Virus record (IMG/VR): IMGVR_UViG_3300009545_000053
Span: 1-26,436 of that record
Reading direction: 5' to 3' (one strand)
DNA from: a virus
DNA length: 26,436 nucleotides
Below, piece after piece: positions 2,832-26,056 of this stretch. Within the stretch, counting starts at the first letter, position 1. Every line of letters starts with the position of its first letter. The translations under genes and the position numbers were made by a program. The notes below the pieces were generated by a model. The model ran no database searches and was not told the DNA's origin. It saw only the letters and a list, made by a program, of their open reading frames with translations.

Positions 2832-4630
2832 TGGCCACGAACTATCCCACCAGCATCGACAGCTTTACCAACCCTGGCGCAGGAGATCCGCAAAATAGCC
2901 CAGGGGCACTGAACCACGCCACGCAGCATGACAACATCAACGATTCCGTGGCAGCTATTGAGACTTACGTCGGCGTCACCGGTTCAGGAGTCGCGGGGAC
3001 TGTCACCAAGAAATTGAATGACGTTATTTCTGCACAGTCCACGGATGCCACAAACATCTCGACCAACACCACGGACATCACCGGACTGAAGGCGGCCAAC
3101 CCGCGCGTTGTCGGTGATGGTCAGATTTTCATTCCCGCAGGAGCCTCCACAGGCACCGCGATCAACAATGCTATGGCTACCCTGTCGGCTGGAGGTTGCA
3201 TCATCCTGGGTGCTGGATCTCATACCCTGGATGTTCAGGTTCAATTCTCCTCCAGCGTGGAGATCCGTGGCGTCTCCCGCATGGGCACCATCCTGAACTG
3301 GAATACCTCTACATTCGCTACAGCCATGAAGATGGTGGACACCACCAACCGGAGAATCAATCTTAGGGATTTCACCATGTTCTGCTCCAACCCCGGAGCA
3401 GGCTGCGCTATCGATATGACTTATTTCATTGACTCCACGCTGGACAATTTATTTATCGGCACTAACAATACGGTCAGCCCCCTGGTCGGCATTGATGCCT
3501 CCAATGGTGGCGGTGGCATCACTTACTACAATGTCATCAGCAACTGTCGAGTGACCGCTTCCGGGGTAAATCCTATTGGTATCAAATTCGGCAATGGATC
3601 GAACTCCAACACCGTGGCCTACACTCGCGTTCTCAGCATTGCTACCGGTACGGGCTCCGGAGTCCAGATCACCGGCACGGCCACCAGCTCCATCCTCCTG
3701 GACCACGTCGATATCGAAAGCAACCCGAACACGATTGCATTTGATATCGGAGCCAATGCTACAGACGTTATGATCTTCGAGCCGTACGTGGAAGGTATGA
3801 ACACAGGTCTGAAGGTGGCCTCGGGAGCTTCCTTCGTCAAGGTGTTCGGAGGCAAGTTCCAGGGAAACACCACCGATATCTCGGACCTGGGTGGCAATGC
3901 TCTATCTCTTCAGAACGTGCGCTCCAAGGCAGGCAACGTGGCCGTTGGCATGCGTAACAACCCCACAGGTGCTGCCATTACTTTCACAGGCTCTGGGTCT
4001 CTCACCGAGGCCCAAATCCAGGGGGCTTACGCTCTGCGCGTGCGCTGCATCGGAGGTGGCGGAGGCGGCGGAGGGGCCGCTACCGCTACAGGAACTACAG
4101 CAGCACACGGAGGAGGCGGTGCAGGCGGTTCCTTTGCAGAATCTACCATCGCCACAAGCACTATCACCTTCCCAGTAACGGTAACTGTGGGGGCTTCCGG
4201 TACAGGAGGAACAGCCGGTGCAAACGCCGGAGGTGCTGGCGGCGACTCCAGCTTTGGTGCCCTGGTCATCGGTAAGGGTGGAGCAGGTGGCGCTGGTGGA
4301 ACCGCGCTAGCGGTAGGAGTATCCGCCGCAGGATCGGTGGCCACGACCGGAGGAACTGGACAGATCCTTCAAGACGGCGCACCCGGAGAGCCTGGATTTG
4401 TGGTGACCGGCTCCACTCCATTCTCTTCCATGGGAGGTTTTGGAGGCGCTGCTGGGTCCGGTGCAGGAGGAGCTTACGGTAACACCGGAAACGGAACAAA
4501 CGCAGGACGAAACGCCACTGCTAACCAGGGGGCCGGAGGGTCCGGAGGGTGCACCGTTAACTCAGGTGCTCAGGTTGCCGGCGGTAATGGCGGCTCCGGG
4601 ATCGTTATCGTTGAACTACTATTCGGATAG
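2831..4630 (+). CDS. Tail fibre / receptor-binding protein with beta-helix and glycine-rich tip
   Basis: 599 aa from the ATG at 2831, chosen because it overlaps the previous stop and because its N-terminus matches the next gene product. Residues 1-65 form a module (MATN-P-T, QH-NIND-VAA-E--VGV) also present at the start of the 4640 gene, probably a shared attachment domain. Residues about 95-400 have the repetitive N/G/T-rich pattern of a right-handed beta-helix (pectate-lyase-like), common in fibres and tailspikes. From about residue 407 to the end the protein is extremely rich in glycine (GGGGAGG-type runs) and ends in a hydrophobic GSGIVIVELLFG, as in glycine-rich phage adhesin tips. No active site could be identified. 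Host-surface binding is inferred from architecture. Confidence 0.8.
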   Translation: MATNYPTSIDSFTNPGAGDPQNSPGALNHATQHDNINDSVAAIETYVGVTGSGVAGTVTKKLNDVISAQSTDATNISTNTTDITGLKAANPRVVGDGQIFIPAGASTGTAINNAMATLSAGGCIILGAGSHTLDVQVQFSSSVEIRGVSRMGTILNWNTSTFATAMKMVDTTNRRINLRDFTMFCSNPGAGCAIDMTYFIDSTLDNLFIGTNNTVSPLVGIDASNGGGGITYYNVISNCRVTASGVNPIGIKFGNGSNSNTVAYTRVLSIATGTGSGVQITGTATSSILLDHVDIESNPNTIAFDIGANATDVMIFEPYVEGMNTGLKVASGASFVKVFGGKFQGNTTDISDLGGNALSLQNVRSKAGNVAVGMRNNPTGAAITFTGSGSLTEAQIQGAYALRVRCIGGGGGGGGAATATGTTAAHGGGGAGGSFAESTIATSTITFPVTVTVGASGTGGTAGANAGGAGGDSSFGALVIGKGGAGGAGGTALAVGVSAAGSVATTGGTGQILQDGAPGEPGFVVTGSTPFSSMGGFGGAAGSGAGGAYGNTGNGTNAGRNATANQGAGGSGGCTVNSGAQVAGGNGGSGIVIVELLFG

Positions 4631-4639
4631 GATCAACTA

Positions 4640-5383
4640 ATGGCGACCAACTTTCCGACAGGCCTGGATACCTTCGTGGATCCGTCCGCCGTCGACAACC
4701 TGGATAGCGCTACCCCTGGTCTGAAGCACCATACTCAGCATACCAATATCAATGACGCAGTGGCGGCTCTTGAGGCTAAAGTTGGCGTCGACTCCTCCGC
4801 AGTAACCACCAGTCTCGACTATAAAATCAACCATATCTCGGCTTCGGCTCCATATACCTATGACCCAGGTGTTGGTTCCAGCGGCACGAACGCGGGCAGC
4901 TCAAACTATAAGGGTGTACTATTCACTCCCTCCTCCAATATGTCTCTTACCGAGATTACTGTTCAACTTGCAGGTTTGAGTGCCTCGGCTACTTATCAGG
5001 CTTTTGTTGTAACCCTGGTCTCAAATGCTCCAGGGGCCACGACAGTGGCCACAATCGTTGGGTCTACTACCCTACTGACCATGAACGTCAGCAATGCCGG
5101 TGTTACCGCAGGTAAAGTAACCATGGCTTTTGCATCTCCTCTGGCTCTGACCGGGGGAACTACCTATGCCTTCATGCCGGGCTCTCCCTCCCAGGCAGGT
5201 AACATGGTAGGACAGCAGTACTACAATGCAGGCTTCAACGGAAACATCACTCTGGCCAATCCTCCGGGAGTTCTGGGGGACTGGGTGGCTATTGGAGTTA
5301 CCCCAATTATTGTAGGGTCTGCGGCCAGCGTTGTTTCTGCGGCGGTTTCTCGTCCTTCTGTCGGGTTCACCGCTAAGCTCTAA
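4640..5383 (+). CDS. Second tail fibre-like protein, paralogous N-terminus
   Basis: 247 aa, starting 9 bases after the previous stop with a weak AGGA ribosome site. Residues 1-65 align with the N-terminus of the 2831 gene product (MATN-P-T start, TQH-NINDAVAALE-KVGV core), so the two probably dock at the same tail site or arose by duplication. Residues about 75-225 form an unrelated, small beta-sandwich-like domain rich in T, S, V and A, without the beta-helix or glycine-rich tip. It could be a carbohydrate-binding domain or a shorter alternative fibre. Function is inferred from the shared module and position only. Confidence 0.7.
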   Translation: MATNFPTGLDTFVDPSAVDNLDSATPGLKHHTQHTNINDAVAALEAKVGVDSSAVTTSLDYKINHISASAPYTYDPGVGSSGTNAGSSNYKGVLFTPSSNMSLTEITVQLAGLSASATYQAFVVTLVSNAPGATTVATIVGSTTLLTMNVSNAGVTAGKVTMAFASPLALTGGTTYAFMPGSPSQAGNMVGQQYYNAGFNGNITLANPPGVLGDWVAIGVTPIIVGSAASVVSAAVSRPSVGFTAKL

Positions 5384-6648: not shown

Positions 6649-7343
6649 GTGATCCGATAACTCAGGTAGCCAAGGCGATCAAGGCTGTGGACGCCAAGGC
6701 CGTGGTGGTGCGCACGGGCACTTCCCTGTCCGGAACGACCGGTGTACAGAACAGCTTCACTGTGGCTCTGGATGGAGACCCTTCCGGAACTCCGGTGACT
6801 GCCGTTTCCGCAGACGGTCTCATTCCTCAGGGAGTTCGGGTTTTGCTTCTGGCCTATCCCACGCGAGGCCTCGTGGCCCTGGGCAGACTGGATGGAAGCG
6901 CCGCGTTCAATCGTCTCAGCGCTACTTCGCTGACGGTGCCCAACATGAGAGCTGTGCAGTACACCAACGCAGGTCCGGCTTCTTTATTCTCGACCACCTA
7001 TATAACTCTGGGCACGGGCATTACTTTCCCCTACCCTCCCAGCGGCATGATTGTGATCTCCATAAGCGCCCGGTTGAACATTAGTGCTGCCGGGGCCAAC
7101 CGCCTTCTTATGGCTGCTCAAATTCGTACTACTAATGGGGCCGGTGCAATCACTCACGCCTTCAATGATGCAGAAGCTGTTGAATGCTCCAGCACTACTC
7201 TCGAGGCCTTCGGTCGTACGTTTATCGCTACCGGACTTCCTACCAGCGGGACCGGTTGGATTGAGGTGGGTGGTAGAGTTACTAATGCCGCCATTACCGG
7301 CACCTTTGAAAATGTTATAGCTGTGGTTCAACCTCAACCTTAG
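6645..7343 (+). CDS. Tail-associated protein with OB-fold-like N-terminus
   Basis: 232 aa. The start is the ATG at 6645 in the ATGA overlap with the preceding tail gene; the same frame is open further upstream, but only inside that gene. Residues about 20-85 show the strand pattern of an OB-fold as in phage spike or baseplate proteins: a valine-rich first strand, a GTPVTAVSADGLIPQGVRVLL stretch (shown in part), then GLVALGRL. The rest is beta-rich and could form a jelly-roll head domain that contacts the host. No catalytic residues were recognised. Translational coupling with the hub-like gene supports a structural role in the tail tip. Confidence 0.6.
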   Translation: MSDPITQVAKAIKAVDAKAVVVRTGTSLSGTTGVQNSFTVALDGDPSGTPVTAVSADGLIPQGVRVLLLAYPTRGLVALGRLDGSAAFNRLSATSLTVPNMRAVQYTNAGPASLFSTTYITLGTGITFPYPPSGMIVISISARLNISAAGANRLLMAAQIRTTNGAGAITHAFNDAEAVECSSTTLEAFGRTFIATGLPTSGTGWIEVGGRVTNAAITGTFENVIAVVQPQP

Positions 7344-7455: not shown

Positions 7456-8388
7456 ATGATGTCTGAGCCGATGGACGCAGATACCCAGGTGAGAATCTTC
7501 AAGGACGCCGGCCTGAAGGTGGTCGAGCGCAAGGGTTGGCGCACCCACAATCGCGCTGGGCACGGTGCCTACGGACCTCTCAATGGTGTCATCATGCACC
7601 ACACGGGTTCGGACAGCAGCGCGGCCTCGATGGAGGCTTATCTCTACGATGGGGACAGTGAGCGAAACCTTCCAGGTCCGCTGTGCCAGTGGTCCATTCG
7701 TACGGATGGCACGATCGTCATGATCGGCAACGGCCGGGCTAATCACGCGGGTGAGGGTTCCGGCACTGTGCTGGCCCACGTCATTGCTGAGGACTACTCG
7801 GGCGATCTCCGGCCGGGCCCCGATGACACTGATGGCAACGCCCACTTCATGGGCTTCGAGACTCAGTACAGCGGTGGCCACGTTCCTGTGAAGGCCCAGT
7901 ATGACGCCATGGTCAAGGCCGCAGCGGCAGTGTGCAAGCACTATGGCTGGAGCGCCAAGAGCGTGATCGGCCACAAGGAGTGGACATCCCGCAAGAATGA
8001 CCCCGGCCACGTCGACATGAGCGACTTCCGTAAGGACGTGCAGGCTATCCTGGACTACACCAAACCGGTCCCTGCGCCTGCACCGGCTCCCAAGCCGAAG
8101 CCCAAGCCCGTGGATCCTGCATTCACCAAGGCGCTCAGTTCCAAGGTAGCTCCGGGTGGCCATGACCCGCAGGTTGCAGACCTGCAACGTCTCCTGACGC
8201 TGGTCGGCTATGGCCCTATCCCCGGCACGCCGCCCTACACGCAGTTCTACGGGGCCAACACCGAGGAGGCTGTGGCTCGCTTTCATGCGGCCAATCCTCA
8301 GTACGCCTCTCGCTCACACGACGTGGCGATCGGTCCTCGAGGCTATGCTGCCCTACAGAAGCTGGCCCTGGCCGCTAAGAGGGGCTAA
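7456..8388 (+). CDS. Endolysin, N-acetylmuramoyl-L-alanine amidase (Amidase_2)
   Basis: 310 aa from ATG 7456 (a second ATG is at 7459; AAGGAAA lies just upstream). Residues about 20-200 are an Amidase_2/PGRP-type zinc amidase that cleaves the bond between muramic acid and the stem peptide. H48-H49-T is the first metal-ligand strand, and GH173KEW followed by K180-N-D182-PGH supplies the second histidine, the catalytic lysine position and the aspartate ligand. A Pro/Ala/Lys linker spans 204-219. Residues 230-305 resemble a peptidoglycan-binding helical domain (VADLQRLLTLVGYG, EEAVARFHAAN). There is no signal peptide, so export should depend on a holin. The putative holin lies about 1.1 kb away on the other strand. 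Confidence 0.93.
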   Translation: MMSEPMDADTQVRIFKDAGLKVVERKGWRTHNRAGHGAYGPLNGVIMHHTGSDSSAASMEAYLYDGDSERNLPGPLCQWSIRTDGTIVMIGNGRANHAGEGSGTVLAHVIAEDYSGDLRPGPDDTDGNAHFMGFETQYSGGHVPVKAQYDAMVKAAAAVCKHYGWSAKSVIGHKEWTSRKNDPGHVDMSDFRKDVQAILDYTKPVPAPAPAPKPKPKPVDPAFTKALSSKVAPGGHDPQVADLQRLLTLVGYGPIPGTPPYTQFYGANTEEAVARFHAANPQYASRSHDVAIGPRGYAALQKLALAAKRG

Positions 8389-8534
8389 ACCTCGGTCGGT
8401 AGGTACTGCTTACGAAGTGCGAAGATGAGGCTGGAAAGAGCGGTTCCAGCCTCTCCGCAGCACCAGCAGATACTTTCCGAAATAGACTCGTCCAGCCATT
8501 TGACTTGACAGTCCTTGCAGGTCCAAGTGATCAT
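8385..8534 (-). CDS. 49-aa zinc-ribbon microprotein
   Basis: On the minus strand an ATG at 8534 overlaps the stop of the metallophosphoesterase gene (ATGA) and gives 49 aa ending with TAG at 8385-8387. Cysteines form two pairs, C6-x2-C9 and C23-x2-C26 (CWCC), a likely zinc ribbon. The C-terminal 20 residues are helical and hydrophobic or basic. The 3' end overlaps the last codon and stop of the convergent endolysin gene by 4 bases. The 4-base overlap and the paired CxxC motifs argue that it is real. The function is unknown; it may be a DNA- or protein-binding accessory to the phosphoesterase. Confidence 0.6.
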   Translation of the reverse strand: MITWTCKDCQVKWLDESISESICWCCGEAGTALSSLIFALRKQYLPTEV

Positions 8535-9379
8535 TTGATCCCCTGCGCCTTTTGCCATGAGTCCAGCGTGCGGCCCTCATAGCGGCGACAGAGATAGTCA
8601 AGGCTGACAAACAGAGGGTCGAAGCTACCCCCACGAACTTCGTTCAGAACCAGTACGCCGCGCCAGTGGTCGTTGCCCTGTGGGCCTAGATATTCCTCAT
8701 GGTGAGCGTAGGCGGCCCCGGCGATGATGCGGTGGATCGAGCGCATGCCGCCGTTCTCATTGCGCGTATAACGCACTGCGTAGTCCAGCGTCTGCTGGTG
8801 ACCGGTGATCATGGAGTGTCCCAGCTTCTGAAGCTGCAAGCTGGCTTGACCGCCCATCGGACGCCCTGTCATCGGCGTCACGGCGTAGTGCGTATAGCCC
8901 ACCCCGTCGAGCCATAGAATGTCCAGGAAGTTGTGGACGGTCCAGCCTGACCGCCAGTAATCGAGATGTTGGAGATCCAGGACGCCCTCCAGCCGTACGG
9001 GGTCGGAATCCACTGCACGGGTAACCCGGTGCTCATGGTTTCCCAGCGTGATGTGTCGTTCGGGCCACCACTGCACATGCTTGGTCTTCTTCCTTGTCCT
9101 GTTGAGGTCCTCCAGGGGCTTATTCAAGGCCGCCCAGCCGGCGTTAGCTGCCTTCACGTCCTCGATATAGCGGCGACCCTCGAGCTGCTTGGAGCCAGGG
9201 CGATCATAAGAGGAGAGGCTGGGGAAGTCGGCATGGTCTCCCAGATGGATGATCTTGATGTTCGGTCGGTCCCTGAACTCATCTACGATGTACTGTCCTA
9301 TCCAGCTCATCGGACGCAGGTTCACGCCGGGCTTGACCTGAGTATCAGGTATGACTATGTGGCGGGCGTACGGTTGCAC
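8531..9379 (-). CDS. Calcineurin-like metallophosphoesterase
   Basis: 282 aa from the GTG at 9379, chosen because GGGAGG lies 4 bases upstream; an in-frame TTG at 9400 lacks a ribosome site. Motifs of the binuclear-metal phosphoesterase fold appear in order: IPDTQ (residues 10-14), LGDHAD (46-51), GNHEH (113-117), a lone His (YTHY, about 164) and TGHQQ (192-196), where most relatives have GHxH. The substrate cannot be told; phage members are usually annotated as DNA or nucleotide phosphoesterases or RNA phosphatases. It lies on the minus strand between endolysin and holin genes, behind a 12-bp inverted repeat that may limit read-through into it. Confidence 0.85.
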   Translation of the reverse strand: MQPYARHIVIPDTQVKPGVNLRPMSWIGQYIVDEFRDRPNIKIIHLGDHADFPSLSSYDRPGSKQLEGRRYIEDVKAANAGWAALNKPLEDLNRTRKKTKHVQWWPERHITLGNHEHRVTRAVDSDPVRLEGVLDLQHLDYWRSGWTVHNFLDILWLDGVGYTHYAVTPMTGRPMGGQASLQLQKLGHSMITGHQQTLDYAVRYTRNENGGMRSIHRIIAGAAYAHHEEYLGPQGNDHWRGVLVLNEVRGGSFDPLFVSLDYLCRRYEGRTLDSWQKAQGIK

Positions 9380-21379: not shown

Positions 21380-21596
21380 TGGTTCTCTCAAGCAAGACCA
21401 TCCTCTGAACCGACCAGGGTTTCCTCAAACGGTGCAGTACAGCCAACGACACCGAGCCTGGGTATACGTGGACTCAGTGGCCCAGTATCGTTTCGACAAC
21501 AAGATAGGCCAGGACCATCCTGATAACGTCGGGGATTGTCCTATCTACTGGGAGTACCTGATCCCTGGTGAGGACTATTCAAAGGCGCGCTCTTGA
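21369..21596 (+). CDS. 75-aa protein of unknown function
   Basis: GTG 21369 is preferred because GAGGAGGAG lies 4-5 bases upstream; the frame itself is open from 21333. The product is rich in aromatic and acidic residues (RHRAWVYVDSVAQYRFDNKIG, in part; DCPIYWEYLIPGEDYSK), suggesting a small beta-rich domain. It overlaps the nuclease gene by 4 bases (TTGA region: TTG at 21593, TGA at 21594-21596). Function unknown; coupling hints at a link to the nuclease. Confidence 0.6.
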   Translation: MRNDGSLKQDHPLNRPGFPQTVQYSQRHRAWVYVDSVAQYRFDNKIGQDHPDNVGDCPIYWEYLIPGEDYSKARS

Positions 21597-22705
21597 GATA
21601 TTCATATTCCAGCCTCGGAACCCTGGCCCAGTGCGAGCGCCGATTCTCCCTGCGCTATCGCGAGGGGCTGCGCCCTGCCGGCCCCAAGCCTTGGGCCCTT
21701 CTCCGGGGAAGCGCTTGGCATGCAGTCATGCAGGCCCAGTCGCTGAACGTGGGCCAGTACTGGGGCTCACTCCTGCAGGAGATGCCCGAGCAGATCGAGG
21801 TCATCGATGGCGTCTGGGCCGAGCCCACTATTGACAGCATCATTGATGCCTTGAAAGAGTGGGAGATCGCGCAGGAGTCCGAATACCTGGACGCCATGCG
21901 TGAGGAGTACGGCGACCTGCTCTCGGCCCGCATGTGGGATCTGTGGATCCGGTTCAATCACAGTGGGAACGTGGACAAGGACTTCGGCCGACCGCTGTTG
22001 GTCGAGCTGGACTGGACTCGTACGCTGCCCAACGGGCTCGAAGCTACGGGTCGGGCAGATCTGGTGTATCTCGATCCCGAGACTGATCAGGTTGTGGTGC
22101 GAGATTGGAAGCTCAACCAGTCCTGGCCTCAAACGCCCTCTGCCATCGAAGACTTGATCAACTCGCAGAACCACTTCAATGCATGGGGCGTGGCCGATGT
22201 GCTGCGTAATTTGTCGGGTGACAAGGAGCTGGTGCCGAGCGCGGTCGAGTACGCCCGCGCCCGGTTCAAGAAACCGGCTACTCCGGCCATGACCAAAGGC
22301 ACCAAAAACGCACCGCCCAGGCTGGCCAAGTCCACGACAGATTTCGACGCCTACACCTACCGGGAGTGGTGCCGCGAGCAGGAGCTGGTGATGGACCAGA
22401 CGGTCTACGATGAGCTTGCCGGTCAACGAGACAAGTGGTTTCGCTTTACACGGAAGCCGCTCCTGTATTCTGTGTATTCACAACATGTCATCAGCGCCTC
22501 TAAGCAGGCAGCCAGGGCTGAGACAATCACTACAGAAGACAGCATCCCTGTGTACGGAAGTCACTGTGCCTTTTGTGAATATGCTACACTCTGTCGTACA
22601 GATCTAGTTGGAGGCAGAGTTCCTTATGATGAGATTGTCTTTGCTGACTACGGACTTCGTCGTAGCTCTAGACGAGAGATTCCGAAAGAAGGTTCAGCAA
22701 ACTGA
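21593..22705 (+). CDS. Cas4/RecB-like PD-(D/E)XK nuclease with Fe-S cysteines, recoded 3' end
   Basis: 370 aa, TTG start at 21593 overlapping the previous stop. Nuclease motifs: G39SAWH43, GRAD156LVY, D171-W-K173, and QNHFNAWG from 192. Four cysteines, C14 plus C325-x2-C328-x5-C334, have the spacing of the Fe-S cluster in Cas4 and AddB-type nucleases. It should process DNA ends for recombination with the Sak4-like ATPase downstream. From about codon 274 codon use shifts to lower GC. The last 36 codons after C334 are a recoded duplicate of a remnant found at 23179-23277, and the HNH gene starts inside them in another frame. The C-terminal 12 residues differ from the remnant. Confidence 0.9.
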   Translation: MRYSYSSLGTLAQCERRFSLRYREGLRPAGPKPWALLRGSAWHAVMQAQSLNVGQYWGSLLQEMPEQIEVIDGVWAEPTIDSIIDALKEWEIAQESEYLDAMREEYGDLLSARMWDLWIRFNHSGNVDKDFGRPLLVELDWTRTLPNGLEATGRADLVYLDPETDQVVVRDWKLNQSWPQTPSAIEDLINSQNHFNAWGVADVLRNLSGDKELVPSAVEYARARFKKPATPAMTKGTKNAPPRLAKSTTDFDAYTYREWCREQELVMDQTVYDELAGQRDKWFRFTRKPLLYSVYSQHVISASKQAARAETITTEDSIPVYGSHCAFCEYATLCRTDLVGGRVPYDEIVFADYGLRRSSRREIPKEGSAN

Positions 22706-23177
22706 AGGCTGTTGGCTATGGGCGGGTAAACCTAGTCACGGTTACGGTAGGTTCAGCTTCACCTGGCAAGGAGAATACGTAACGGTGGGTGCCCACCAGT
22801 GGGCGCATTTTGTTCACACAGGAATAGATGCTGCAGGACTGGGGTTGGATGTTGATCACCGGTGTCATGATCCCAAAAAGTGTAGGGGTGGGGAGAGCTG
22901 CCTACATAGACTTTGTGTTCGAGGCGATCATCTAAGATCAGTTCCTCGGGGAGAAAACGTTAGTGCTCACCGTTCTTCAATCGGTCAAGCTCAGAGAGAA
23001 CGAGCAGCCAAGATCACTCACTGCCCTCATGGTCACCTGTATTCAGGGGATAATCTCAGACTAAGTAAAACTGGTGGAAAGATTTGCGTAGCTTGTCAAC
23101 GAGCCGCTGTCAACAAGTGGGCGGCACGAGACCGAGAGATAAATGGTTCGCGCTGGAAGAGAGACGAACGGGTGTAG
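22626..23177 (+). CDS. HNH homing endonuclease
   Basis: 183 aa. ATG 22626 (a second ATG is at 22629) is preceded by GGAGG at 22610-22614, inside the 3' end of the nuclease gene; 80 bases are dual-coding. The HNH fold is shown by GC29WLW, AHQW, VDH78, the C80/C86/C92/C97 zinc cysteines, H102-L and GEN111. A C-terminal CPHGHLYSGDNL (from C133) with C154-x2-C157 is the extra zinc module typical of HNH homing enzymes. The gene is richer in A and T than its neighbours. It ends one base before the displaced 3' fragment of the nuclease gene, so it is a free-standing mobile gene, not an intron or intein passenger. Confidence 0.92.
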   Translation: MMRLSLLTTDFVVALDERFRKKVQQTEGCWLWAGKPSHGYGRFSFTWQGEYVTVGAHQWAHFVHTGIDAAGLGLDVDHRCHDPKKCRGGESCLHRLCVRGDHLRSVPRGENVSAHRSSIGQAQRERAAKITHCPHGHLYSGDNLRLSKTGGKICVACQRAAVNKWAARDREINGSRWKRDERV

Positions 23178-23178
23178 T

Positions 23179-23277
23179 CTGTGCCGGGCAGATCTGGTGG
23201 GTGGGCGACAGCCCTACGATGAGGTCGTTCTGGTGGACTACGGGCTGCGCAAACGAGCGGAGAATGCGGTACACTAG
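23179..23277 (+). pseudogene. Displaced native 3' end of the Cas4/RecB-like nuclease gene
   Basis: Reading CTG TGC CGG from 23179 gives LCRADLVGGRQPYDEVVLVD, then YGLRKRAENAVH and TAG at 23275-23277. It aligns with residues 333-356 of the intact nuclease upstream (LCRTDLVGGRVPYDEIVFAD then YGLR): 19 of 24 residues are identical, while nearly every shared codon differs at the third base. It has GC-rich codons like the 5' part of the nuclease gene and no start or ribosome site. It is therefore the original gene end, cut off when the HNH element arrived. The following bases to 23398 hold no gene, only the leader of the next one. Confidence 0.9.
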
Positions 23278-23398
23278 AGTCTGCAGCTCGGTTCCTAGAG
23301 TGTCTGAGCAGCACCCGAAGAATGGCACGTGGTCTGCCTTGCTCCGTTCTACCTAATTTAATAGTCCTTATGATCAAAAGTCCGAGGAGACTGATCAC

Positions 23399-24253
23399 GT
23401 GACTGCACCTTCTTTTGCAGAGCCGTCTTTGCCCACTTCTTCTAACTCCCTGACCATCGCAGGTCTTAGCGTCATGCCTGCATCGTCTACTCGCCCAGAC
23501 GCCATGAAAGTTCTAATCCACGGTTTGCCGGGGAGTGGAAAAACGACCCTTGCCTCGTCTATTGCGGCGCAAGGCAAGACTCTATTTGTGGATCTGATTG
23601 GTGAACGAGGTACCATGTCTTTTCGTGGAGCCCCTTACGAGAAGAACATCGACGTGGTTAGACCTAAGTCTGTAGTGGAACTAACCGGGATTCAGCGCTA
23701 CTTGGCCAAGGGAGACCATGACTACACTGCCGTGGTATTGGACTCTATCTCGGCCGCGCAAAACTCAGCGATGAGATTTCAACTGAACTACGATGAAGAC
23801 ACAGTGACCGAGATCCGTAAAGGTCGGCAGACCGCCGATCAGCGGACCTGGGGAGTGGTGGGAGAGATCATGACTGATATCTCCCTGTTCTGGATGGCCT
23901 TGGCGGAGAGCCAGCGTAAGAAGCCCATTCACGTTATATTCACCAGCCAGACCAAGATGAAAACAGGGGTGGACGGGGAGGCCAAGCTTTATCCAGATGT
24001 ATCCCCCAAATCCCTGGCCGCTGCCATGGCGGCCCCGGACTACGTTTTCTATACCGACGTGGTAGAGGATCTTCTGGATGATGGTTCCGCAGCCATGAAG
24101 CACGTTGTAAGGGTTCTTCCAGACCCCAACTATGCTATCAAAGCCAGGATCCCTGAAGCTTTGCAGAGTAAGATTCCCCCGGTGTTGGGGATGGACGGCA
24201 AGCGCCCGTCCTTGACTACTCTCGGTCAGGTGCTGGGCAAGATCAGTAAGTAA
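23399..24253 (+). CDS. Sak4-like RecA-fold ATPase (single-strand annealing/recombination)
   Basis: 284 aa, GTG at 23399 with GAGGAG (23384-23389) upstream. Walker A is GLPGSGKTT (42-50) and the Walker B strand AVVLDS (111-116), followed by a long helical segment and VIFTSQTKMKTG (about 180-191). The organisation, size and lack of other domains fit phage nucleotide-binding proteins of the AAA_24/Sak4 type, which are RecA-like core proteins acting with a phage ssDNA-binding protein. The next gene looks like such a partner, and an exonuclease-like gene lies upstream, forming a recombination set. Confidence 0.85.
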   Translation: MTAPSFAEPSLPTSSNSLTIAGLSVMPASSTRPDAMKVLIHGLPGSGKTTLASSIAAQGKTLFVDLIGERGTMSFRGAPYEKNIDVVRPKSVVELTGIQRYLAKGDHDYTAVVLDSISAAQNSAMRFQLNYDEDTVTEIRKGRQTADQRTWGVVGEIMTDISLFWMALAESQRKKPIHVIFTSQTKMKTGVDGEAKLYPDVSPKSLAAAMAAPDYVFYTDVVEDLLDDGSAAMKHVVRVLPDPNYAIKARIPEALQSKIPPVLGMDGKRPSLTTLGQVLGKISK

Positions 24254-24284: not shown

Positions 24285-24860
24285 GTGGCTCAAGACACTC
24301 TCTTCATCCCGTTCAGCGAGTGGGATGAGGCGGACAAGAAGACGGCAGCGCTGCTGCCCGAGGGTGAGTACACCCTCAAGGTGGTCTCTGCGGAGATCGT
24401 CAAGATCAAGACCGGCCCGAACGAGGGCACTCCCGGCATCGAGGTCTGGTTCCAGCCGACCGATCCGGCTTTCGCGGACCAGTACATCGTGGACCGCTTC
24501 TACACCATGAAGTCCACGCTGTGGCGCTTCTCCGGTTTCCTGCGGGCCGTCGGTCTGAAGGTCACTCAGAATGACATGAGCTTGCCGGTCAAGCAGCTCA
24601 TCGGCAAGCGCGTCACTGCGACGCTCAAGGACGGAGACGAGTTCAAGGGCTCGCGCAAGTCCGAGGTGTCGGCGTACGCACCGGTGCCGAAGACTGCGCC
24701 CATGAAGGGCTCTGGCCTGACCGAGGACACGGCTCTCGTGGACGAGGAGATTGCTCTCAAGGAAATCGACACGGCTACTGCTGACGCTATTCTCGGCGGC
24801 GGCGGTTCCGGCTACACGGTGGAAGACCCGTGGGCGATGGACGAGTCGATCAGTCTGTAA
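24285..24860 (+). CDS. DUF669-like single-stranded-DNA-binding protein
   Basis: 191 aa from GTG 24285, chosen for the GGAGG at 24273-24277; the frame is open from 24273 but starts within the ribosome site. The N-terminal 120 residues show the strand pattern LPEGEYTLKVVSAEI, GTPGIEVWFQ, RFYTMKSTLWRFSGFLRAVG (as separate blocks) seen in DUF669-type phage proteins, which are proposed ssDNA-binding proteins. A flexible middle (KTAPMKGSG) and a GGGGSG stretch precede an acidic tail (DPWAMDESISL) like the partner-binding tip of SSBs. It is directly downstream of the Sak4-like gene and followed by a strong terminator. Confidence 0.8.
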   Translation: MAQDTLFIPFSEWDEADKKTAALLPEGEYTLKVVSAEIVKIKTGPNEGTPGIEVWFQPTDPAFADQYIVDRFYTMKSTLWRFSGFLRAVGLKVTQNDMSLPVKQLIGKRVTATLKDGDEFKGSRKSEVSAYAPVPKTAPMKGSGLTEDTALVDEEIALKEIDTATADAILGGGGSGYTVEDPWAMDESISL

Positions 24861-24878
24861 GATAGAAGACGGCACTGG

Positions 24879-24927
24879 CCCCCGAGGATACTCCACCGCC
24901 CGGTGGAACCCTCGGGGGTCTCTTCGT
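24879..24927 (+). terminator. Strong nested-stem terminator
   Basis: CCCCCGAGG (24879-24887) pairs with CCTCGGGGG (24910-24918), and inside it TCCACC (24892-24897) pairs with GGTGGA (24902-24907) around GCCC. TCTCTTCG follows. It closes the recombination operon after the ssDNA-binding protein gene and lies just ahead of the VRR-NUC gene, whose ribosome site starts 12 bases later. Confidence 0.85.
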
Positions 24928-24938
24928 AGGGAGAGAGT

Positions 24939-25310
24939 ATGAGCCGAACCACTCCGGAATCGCTGGTCGTAGCTGCCATCGTCAAGGCTATCTACGCCCA
25001 ATATCCCGATGCCCATGTGGTCAAGATCCATGGCAGCCTGTACCAGGCCAGCGGCTTCCCTGACCTGTTGGCCTTCGTCAACGGACGGGCTTATGGTCTG
25101 GAGGTCAAGCGTCAGCGCAACGGAGAAAGTGCTCAGCGTGCACGCAACCGATCCACGCCACTGCAGAAGCTGACGATCGCCAAGCTACGTAAGGCAGGGA
25201 TTACAGCAGATACCGTGTTGTCTCCCAGTGAGGCACTCGCCGTCATCCAAGGTGGTCACAAGTTTCTGGATAACTCCGACTTACCAAACCTCTTGACGAG
25301 CGAGCAGTAG
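24939..25310 (+). CDS. VRR-NUC domain nuclease
   Basis: 123 aa, ATG 24939 with GGGAGAGAG upstream. The compact nuclease core reads ESLVVAAIVKAI, VKIHGSLYQASGFPDLLAF (ligand D42 in the FPDLL turn), then Y-GLEVKRQ with E55 and K57, and TPLQ near residue 73. These are the D, ExK and Q elements of the VRR-NUC group of PD-(D/E)XK enzymes, known as structure-specific nucleases such as Holliday-junction or flap resolvases. The C-terminal 25 residues are polar. It completes the recombination set but is separated from it by the terminator, so it may be expressed by read-through or separately. Confidence 0.88.
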   Translation: MSRTTPESLVVAAIVKAIYAQYPDAHVVKIHGSLYQASGFPDLLAFVNGRAYGLEVKRQRNGESAQRARNRSTPLQKLTIAKLRKAGITADTVLSPSEALAVIQGGHKFLDNSDLPNLLTSEQ

Positions 25311-25363: not shown

Positions 25364-26056
25364 ATGAACATCACCACGAAGAGCGGCTTGGCAGTCGCCT
25401 TCCTCATCACTTCGCCGATCGCCACTGCGGCGGCGGCTTCTGCTACCAACCACACTGACCCGTGTCCCGGCCAGCACATTCAGGTTTGGGCCGAGGTCGG
25501 TACTCATGGCGCTGGGCAGGCCACGGATCACTTTGTGTGCGCCTCTGACCTGCCCGCCGGTCCTAAGGGGGACAAGGGTGATACGGGTGCGACTGGCGCT
25601 ACTGGTGCTCAGGGACCGGAAGGCCCTCAGGGTCCTGCAGGTGCCCCCGGTAAGGACGGCGCTGCGGGTGCTGACGGTCAGACCGGGCCGGCCGGTCCCG
25701 CTGGGGCCAACGGTGAGACTGGTCCTGCTGGCCCCGCCGGTCCTACTGGACCCCAGGGTGAGGCGGGAACTGACGGCGTTGCAGGCGCGCAGGGACTGCC
25801 TGGCGTCGACGGTAAGGATGGCCTGGCCGGTGCGGTAGGCGCACAGGGCCCCGCCGGGGAGAACGGTAAGGACGGCAAGCCGGGCATTAATAAGACGGTC
25901 ATCATTCATGCTGATGGGACGCAGCAGGTCGTGGACGGTTTGCCGCACACCGGCGCTTCGACCGGCGAGGCTTTGCTGATCGGCGGGATCGGTGCGGCTG
26001 TCGTTCTGGCCGGTGCCGGTACTGTTCTCTACACTCGACGTAATCGTTCCGTCTAG
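25364..26056 (+). CDS. Secreted collagen-like protein with LPHTG wall-sorting signal
   Basis: 230 aa, ATG 25364 with AAGGGGA upstream. Order of parts: signal peptide 1-25 (MNITTKSGLAVAFLITSPIA then TAAAASA); a short globular piece with two cysteines (C34, C59); 36 uninterrupted Gly-X-Y triplets at 66-173, rich in GPA and GKD; a linker (INKTVIIHADGTQQVVDG); LPHTG at 193-197; a hydrophobic segment (about 204-224); and a basic end (RRNRSV). Signal peptide plus LPxTG, membrane span and positive tail is the sortase-anchored wall-protein layout, so it should be displayed on the host wall rather than built into the virion. Its role is unknown: adhesion, superinfection exclusion or decoy are options. 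Confidence 0.9.
   Translation: MNITTKSGLAVAFLITSPIATAAAASATNHTDPCPGQHIQVWAEVGTHGAGQATDHFVCASDLPAGPKGDKGDTGATGATGAQGPEGPQGPAGAPGKDGAAGADGQTGPAGPAGANGETGPAGPAGPTGPQGEAGTDGVAGAQGLPGVDGKDGLAGAVGAQGPAGENGKDGKPGINKTVIIHADGTQQVVDGLPHTGASTGEALLIGGIGAAVVLAGAGTVLYTRRNRSV

Follow-up and report, generated by a model that had tools for sequence, protein, structure and literature searches.

We analyzed a window of 26436 bases, the whole of the metagenome-derived IMG/VR virus record IMGVR_UViG_3300009545_000053, and found that its Cas4-like PD-(D/E)XK exonuclease gene carries a foreign, in-frame 3' end joined to an HNH endonuclease gene, beyond which the native end of the same gene lies as a presumably unused fragment. 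We consider it likely (probability roughly 0.8) that an intron-less homing cassette, made up of the HNH gene and the adjoining divergent host-gene end, invaded the exonuclease gene as one unit. The phage routes known so far are introns, inteins, intergenic sites, and split genes. If true, our reading would answer how homing genes that have neither intron nor intein enter conserved genes without killing them, namely by bringing along their own copy of the interrupted end.

Two ends of one exonuclease gene

The window also contains tail, DNA polymerase, helicase, and primase genes. Its exonuclease gene (21593-22705, plus strand) is intact, as the original prediction from this DNA had stated, with an open reading frame of 370 amino acids, and the HNH gene (22626-23177, plus strand; phrog_826 HNH endonuclease, 3e-29) lies in another frame. 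The exonuclease combines a PDDEXK_1 domain (PF12705, 5e-19; phrog_1218 exonuclease) with the C-terminal cysteine cluster of Cas4-like PD-(D/E)XK exonucleases; C14, C325, C328, and C334 were invariant in an alignment of five homologues, and they likely form the FeS site. PDB sequence searches returned nothing useful. The next gene downstream (23399-24253, plus strand) encodes a Sak4-like recombinase (phrog_124 Sak4-like ssDNA annealing protein, 4e-24).

After the HNH stop codon, a fragment (23176-23277, plus strand) encodes SLCRADLVGGRQPYDEVVLVDYGLRKRAENAVH followed by a stop, a second version of the exonuclease end running from codon 332 to the stop codon. Exonuclease residues 331-363 match 23176-23274 with 58% amino acid identity in a 33-residue alignment (E 3.6e-8 in a search of the loci compared here, as seen with the identical L002). 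In the flank test described below, this pair scored 50 bits, where pairs of different loci attain 40 bits at a rate of about 0.1 per 181 loci. Distant exonuclease homologues have a single C-terminal end each.

The one known close relative of the window at which the HNH gene is missing, L003 (IMGVR_UViG_3300046012_000400), encodes an 84% identical exonuclease with one continuous copy of the gene end. Its gene aligns to window positions 21629-22578 (77.9%) and then, adjacent in L003, to 23176-23278 (81.6%). The native 5' part, codons 1-272 (21593-22408, plus strand), has 82% DNA identity to L003 and a GC3 of 0.78; the fragment after the HNH gene likewise has 82% DNA identity to L003 (4994-5096), and its GC of 0.61 resembles that of the 5' part. 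Among residue-identical codons, those shared with L003 numbered 16 of 26 in the displaced fragment vs 3 of 22 in the end in use. Because L003 aligns to both flanks and codon sharing is so unequal, the fragment at 23176-23277 is identified as the gene's original end, whereas the one now in use is foreign. The native origin that the original prediction had assigned to the fragment was thus borne out, as was its expectation that this end joins the 5' part directly in an HNH-less relative; the junction, which it had placed at codon 333/334, instead falls at codon 332 (23176). It had also named the presence of both copies in an HNH-less relative as evidence against itself, and we found a single copy in L003.

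Two other features of L003 may be recorded here. It carries a different HNH gene (6873-7307; HNH_3, 1.5e-12) between a DUF669 gene and the next nuclease-like gene, where the window has none (24860-24939), and we detected no displaced gene end on either side of this gene. A collagen-like Gly-X-Y repeat protein of the window (25364-26056), with a sortase-like C-terminal LPHTG motif (LPHTGASTGEALLIGG...), has a homologue in L003 at 7734-8714.

The foreign 3' end (22409-22705, plus strand) is in frame with the native 5' part, and its left boundary is uncertain, at about 22336-22571. Across this boundary, identity to L003 falls from 82% to about 61-62% and GC3 from 0.78 to 0.40; the changepoint of GC3 within the gene was at 22409 (support 22400-22571) and that of identity to L003 at 22372 (support 22336-22387, permutation p 0.0005). 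Divergence therefore starts near 22409, about 180 bases upstream of 22589, where the original prediction had it begin. The right border is sharp, with alignment to L003 resuming at 23176, the first base of codon 332. Between these borders, low GC3 is common to the whole block 22409-23175 (0.40 in the gene end and 0.43 in the HNH gene), and this shared composition marks the gene end and the HNH gene as a joint foreign block of about 765 bases, of which the gene end accounts for about 300. Of the native gene, about 180 bases before codon 332 were replaced, and the remainder was displaced.

Part of the foreign end (22586-22681, plus strand) duplicates the displaced native end in a local alignment to 23176-23271. 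Over the first 24 codons, nucleotide identity is 65%, 18 of 24 residues agree (19 of 24 when counted from one codon further on, as in the original prediction), and only 5 of 19 residue-identical codons are the same. The foreign end supplies three of the putative FeS-site cysteines (C325, C328, and C334). Its donor was sought in several ways: DNA searches of the phage collection with the locus or the foreign block gave no match, tblastn of the nuclease in that collection gave distant relatives only, prokaryote genomes yielded no relative, and a further viral scan found only L002 and L003.

The HNH gene starts inside this foreign end, likely at ATG 22626 (or 22629), and its first 80 bases overlap the nuclease end. 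Its product belongs to the actinophage-type family described by phrog_826; the Pfam HNH_3 profile gave E 0.035, under that profile's cut-off. The conserved D-H...H...N residues and zinc-finger cysteines are present, with D76, H77, C79, C96, H101, N110, C132, H136, and C156 invariant in alignment A3; a nine-protein HNH alignment proved too heterogeneous to serve as a search query. A Shine-Dalgarno-like GGAGG (22610-22614, plus strand), which may serve the HNH gene, lies 12 to 16 bases ahead of ATG 22626, within codons of the foreign end that specify Val-Gly-Gly. These codons read GTTGGAGGC in the foreign end, vs GTGGGTGGG in the native fragment and GTGGGCGGT in L003, both of which lack GGAGG. 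Since the HNH gene has its putative ribosome-binding site and its start within the foreign end, it presumably depends on that end in order to move, and the joint transfer of both would thereby be explained. At the other border, the HNH stop codon TAG (23175-23177, plus strand) is formed by the junction itself, with T from the element and AG from native codon 332 (AGT).

Recurrence among phage HNH loci

In a general flank test, translated flanking sequences from 181 HNH regions were compared among themselves, and nine loci scored at least 25 bits, vs 0.8 expected from pairs of different loci. At 28 bits or more, 8 of 181 HNH regions and 4 of 411 control genes gave matches; the control matches inspected were mostly tandem paralogues and not displaced gene ends, but this general test is only moderately specific because control genes also match. 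A stricter test, anchored at the start or stop codon that adjoins the HNH gene, covered 236 non-redundant HNH loci and gave seven 5' pairs scoring at least 36 (six without L279, which was added by hand) vs 0.0 expected, and three 3' pairs scoring at least 45 (L194, L223, and L225) vs 0.17 expected. Taken together, a flanking copy of a host-gene end occurs at about 10 loci (4%), including the window, which was found by the general test, where well under one is expected. Short scars escape both tests, and the counts leave out L279, L150, L257, and L260, and also weak matches of less than 25 bits. These comparisons show that the displaced-end arrangement recurs around phage HNH genes. The HNH proteins of the compared cases are only 27-53% identical, and the end-swap events are therefore mostly independent.

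Swaps of 3' ends were found in the window, L223, L194, and, more weakly, L225. The host gene in L223 is another Cas4-type exonuclease (PF12705, 1e-19), and its displaced end is fused to the HNH reading frame and takes up the sequence two codons past the last FeS cysteine; the host gene in L194 is a Holliday junction resolvase gene (phrog_2002). Mirror-image swaps of 5' ends were found in Brevibacterium phage Cantare, L177, L178, L202, L141 with L220, and L189 with L098, and also in L279. In Cantare, a cultured phage whose swapped 5' end belongs to a ParB-like gene, the two versions at gene 77 are MHDRSVVEEYDT... before the HNH gene and MHERSVVEEYDT... after it, and in L177 the flanking copies are MRTAARVDANQPEIVKALRGIGASIL and MRTAARVDKNQAEIVSALRRIGASVL. 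Empty-site alleles, as expected of homing endonucleases, occur in relatives of two cases, namely L003 for the window and L282 for L279. Relative to L282, the flank preceding the HNH gene of L279 is 90.9% identical and is followed by 31 stranded bases from the beginning of the next gene (90%); after the HNH gene, a new gene start is 64% identical up to about 4482, beyond which identity is 90%. As judged from these identities, this pair polarizes the mirror image: the HNH gene, foreign end, and native gene are on one side and the native scar on the other. In L189 (= L098), a 12-codon start, MRWGLIARAEDR / MRWGLIARGEDR, flanks the HNH gene (843-878 and 1430-1474), and the downstream copy stops after 14 codons, possibly as a decayed 5' swap or through a sequencing error.

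Some superficially similar loci were set apart. L087 (1930-3433; the same contig as, or a near copy of, L226 and L228) scored in the flank test but was rejected as an end swap; it has two tandem HNH genes with a duplicated leader upstream of each (MSERMNAANIHP / MSERMDARNTHP), which is a tandem duplication of the homing gene. In L045 (also L247), a short repeat of a gene start (MTLIFVDCEG / ISLIFVDCEG; 2441-2470 and 2899-2928) flanks an HNH gene and remains under the counting threshold. In L132 (reverse strand; 4069-4113 and 4601-4645), adjacent non-HNH genes have a common 15-residue start (MTTEQMDWIDDQANAR / MTTEQMDWLDDQRNAR) and are probably tandem paralogues.

We lean toward the broader view that phages hold a widespread class of intron-less homing cassettes, each an HNH gene with an adjoining 5' or 3' host-gene end, that would enter coding sequences near gene ends, keep the gene unbroken by bringing in a foreign end, and leave the native end as a scar. 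Such carried-in ends would be a hidden source of gene mosaicism and enzyme resistance, and trees and annotations of replication and recombination genes could be misled by them. Because stranded ends would be datable scars that show the side of the cut, the target of an uncharacterized HNH gene could be read from sequence.

Proposed course of events and alternatives

The anatomy described above is directly visible in the alignments, and from it the following course can be proposed. The HNH enzyme would cut near codon 331/332 of an allele lacking its gene, at the point where the last FeS cysteine is encoded, and the break would be repaired from a divergent donor, whereby the donor gene end and the HNH gene would be copied in. 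The left crossover would lie about 180 bases ahead of the break, within homologous coding sequence, and the right crossover at the break itself, leaving the native end stranded; in later rounds of homing, this scar would act as the right homology arm, the second of the two. The foreign end would keep the nuclease whole, and the hybrid nuclease would work. A carrier should resist its own enzyme because the foreign end does not have the native target sequence, and the broken target would also protect it. The foreign end could, however, have arrived by recombination that the HNH enzyme did not start.

The strongest alternative, although an unlikely one, takes this last possibility further and regards the locus as ordinary mosaic recombination between two phages, in which a crossover within the exonuclease gene, together with an illegitimate junction at codon 332, happened to bring in a neighboring HNH gene as a passenger whose enzyme has no role. 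Phage genomes are mosaic, HNH genes do occur at exchange boundaries (PMC10448857), and HNH activity is deduced here from sequence. Nevertheless, displaced ends occur beside HNH genes far above expectation in the anchored tests, always with the HNH gene between both copies, and two separate Cas4-type exonucleases, those of the window and L223, were struck at the last FeS cysteine.

Less probable still is the strong form of the original prediction, according to which selection for synonymous differences protected the copy from being cut by the enzyme. In its favor, the native fragment uses another codon at 14 of 19 residue-identical positions, and codon agreement of the foreign end with L003 was below random (14 of 69 vs 22.9 expected from random draws from HNH codon usage, p 0.006), although codon-usage differences may be the cause. 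Agreement with the actual native fragment, by contrast, was as random (5 of 19 vs 6.4 expected from random draws, p 0.32). The replacement is the diverged end of a homologue: about one quarter of residues differ in the overlap, the C-terminal tail is different, and the divergence starts about 180 bases upstream of the duplicated part. Because divergence extends that far and includes amino acid changes, a distant homologue accounts for it without selection for recoding. What stands of the original prediction is that the element brought a replacement of working length, and not that this replacement was synonymously recoded. Self-immunization of the carrier, as read from the loss of the native target sequence, is plausible, and it would follow from either origin.

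The remaining alternatives are all very improbable. A group I or II intron or an intein could carry the HNH gene, with the gene end as an intron-internal extension and codon 331 spliced onto the downstream fragment; HNH genes often reside in introns, and the stranded open frame would restore the native protein. However, no Rfam intron family, and hence no recognizable intron RNA, was found in the region at lax or strict thresholds, and an intron has no need of an extension homologous to its downstream exon, as is present here. The nuclease frame itself needs no splicing, which agrees with the earlier claim that the gene differs from intron- or intein-borne homing genes. In-place tandem duplication of the gene end, followed by divergence and later HNH insertion between the copies, would explain why they lie side by side, but the divergent block begins about 180 bases before the duplicated part and has a GC3 like that of the HNH gene, and L003 has one copy. 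An assembly chimera of two phages is conceivable for a metagenome-derived record, but the same junctions recur in a second assembly, L002, which repeats the whole arrangement with 2 differences in 8844 bases (it may come from a related sample), and the mirror arrangement exists in the cultured phage Cantare.

Comparison with known systems

Like the HNH genes at phage recombination boundaries (PMC10448857), the window endonuclease adjoins a sharp change in identity; the relevant passages of that source do not mention displaced gene ends, whereas the window has one. In T-even phages, free-standing homing endonuclease genes (seg and mob; intronless homing) lie between genes or split genes in two (PMC2988022). 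The window cassette resembles them in being phage-borne, in having no intron or intein, in a frame that overlaps the upstream gene, as is often seen there (mobA, mobC, segC, and segF), and, presumably, in the co-conversion of flanks. However, no case of a displaced gene end next to a foreign substitute appears in the T-even review, and it places cleavage sites hundreds of bases or more from the gene, whereas the putative site in the window is the junction itself. Similar to MobE in nrdA of phage Aeh1 and MobA in T4 gene 60 (PMC2988022), the window HNH gene lies within replication-related coding sequence; in those cases the host gene is split and its product works as two chains, whereas in the window the carried-in end keeps one chain. 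No phage precedent for displaced gene ends at HNH genes was found in the literature searched, coverage of which was incomplete (few subscription journals), and this absence is therefore weak evidence of novelty.

The closest counterpart is found outside phages, and the strategy is consequently not new to biology. Mobile ORFs with a foreign C-terminus are known from fungal mitochondria, in atp6, atp9, cox2, and nad3 of Glomus (PMC3630166), and the same order of parts was described in atp6 of Allomyces macrogynus (Paquin et al. 1994, as cited in PMC3630166). In both fungi and the window, a native gene core, an in-frame foreign end, an endonuclease ORF, and a displaced native end follow in order; the foreign end of the window (22409-22705) lies in frame upstream of the endonuclease ORF, and the displaced end is closer to relatives than the end in use (82% vs about 62% to L003). 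Similarly, the two ends of Glomus atp6 have 63.5% of bases and 91% of residues in common, the native one being nearer to a relative (PMC3630166). In the fungal case, transcription was shown for the hybrid only (PMC3630166), whereas the window hybrid is known from its DNA. The fungal cases were described at 3' ends, whereas phage cases also swap 5' ends, and these mirror cases widen the fungal scheme. The fungal ORFs encode LAGLIDADG or GIY-YIG enzymes in mitochondria, whereas the window encodes an HNH enzyme in a phage; for this reason, we describe the window cassette as one that works like the fungal mobile ORFs rather than as a member of them.
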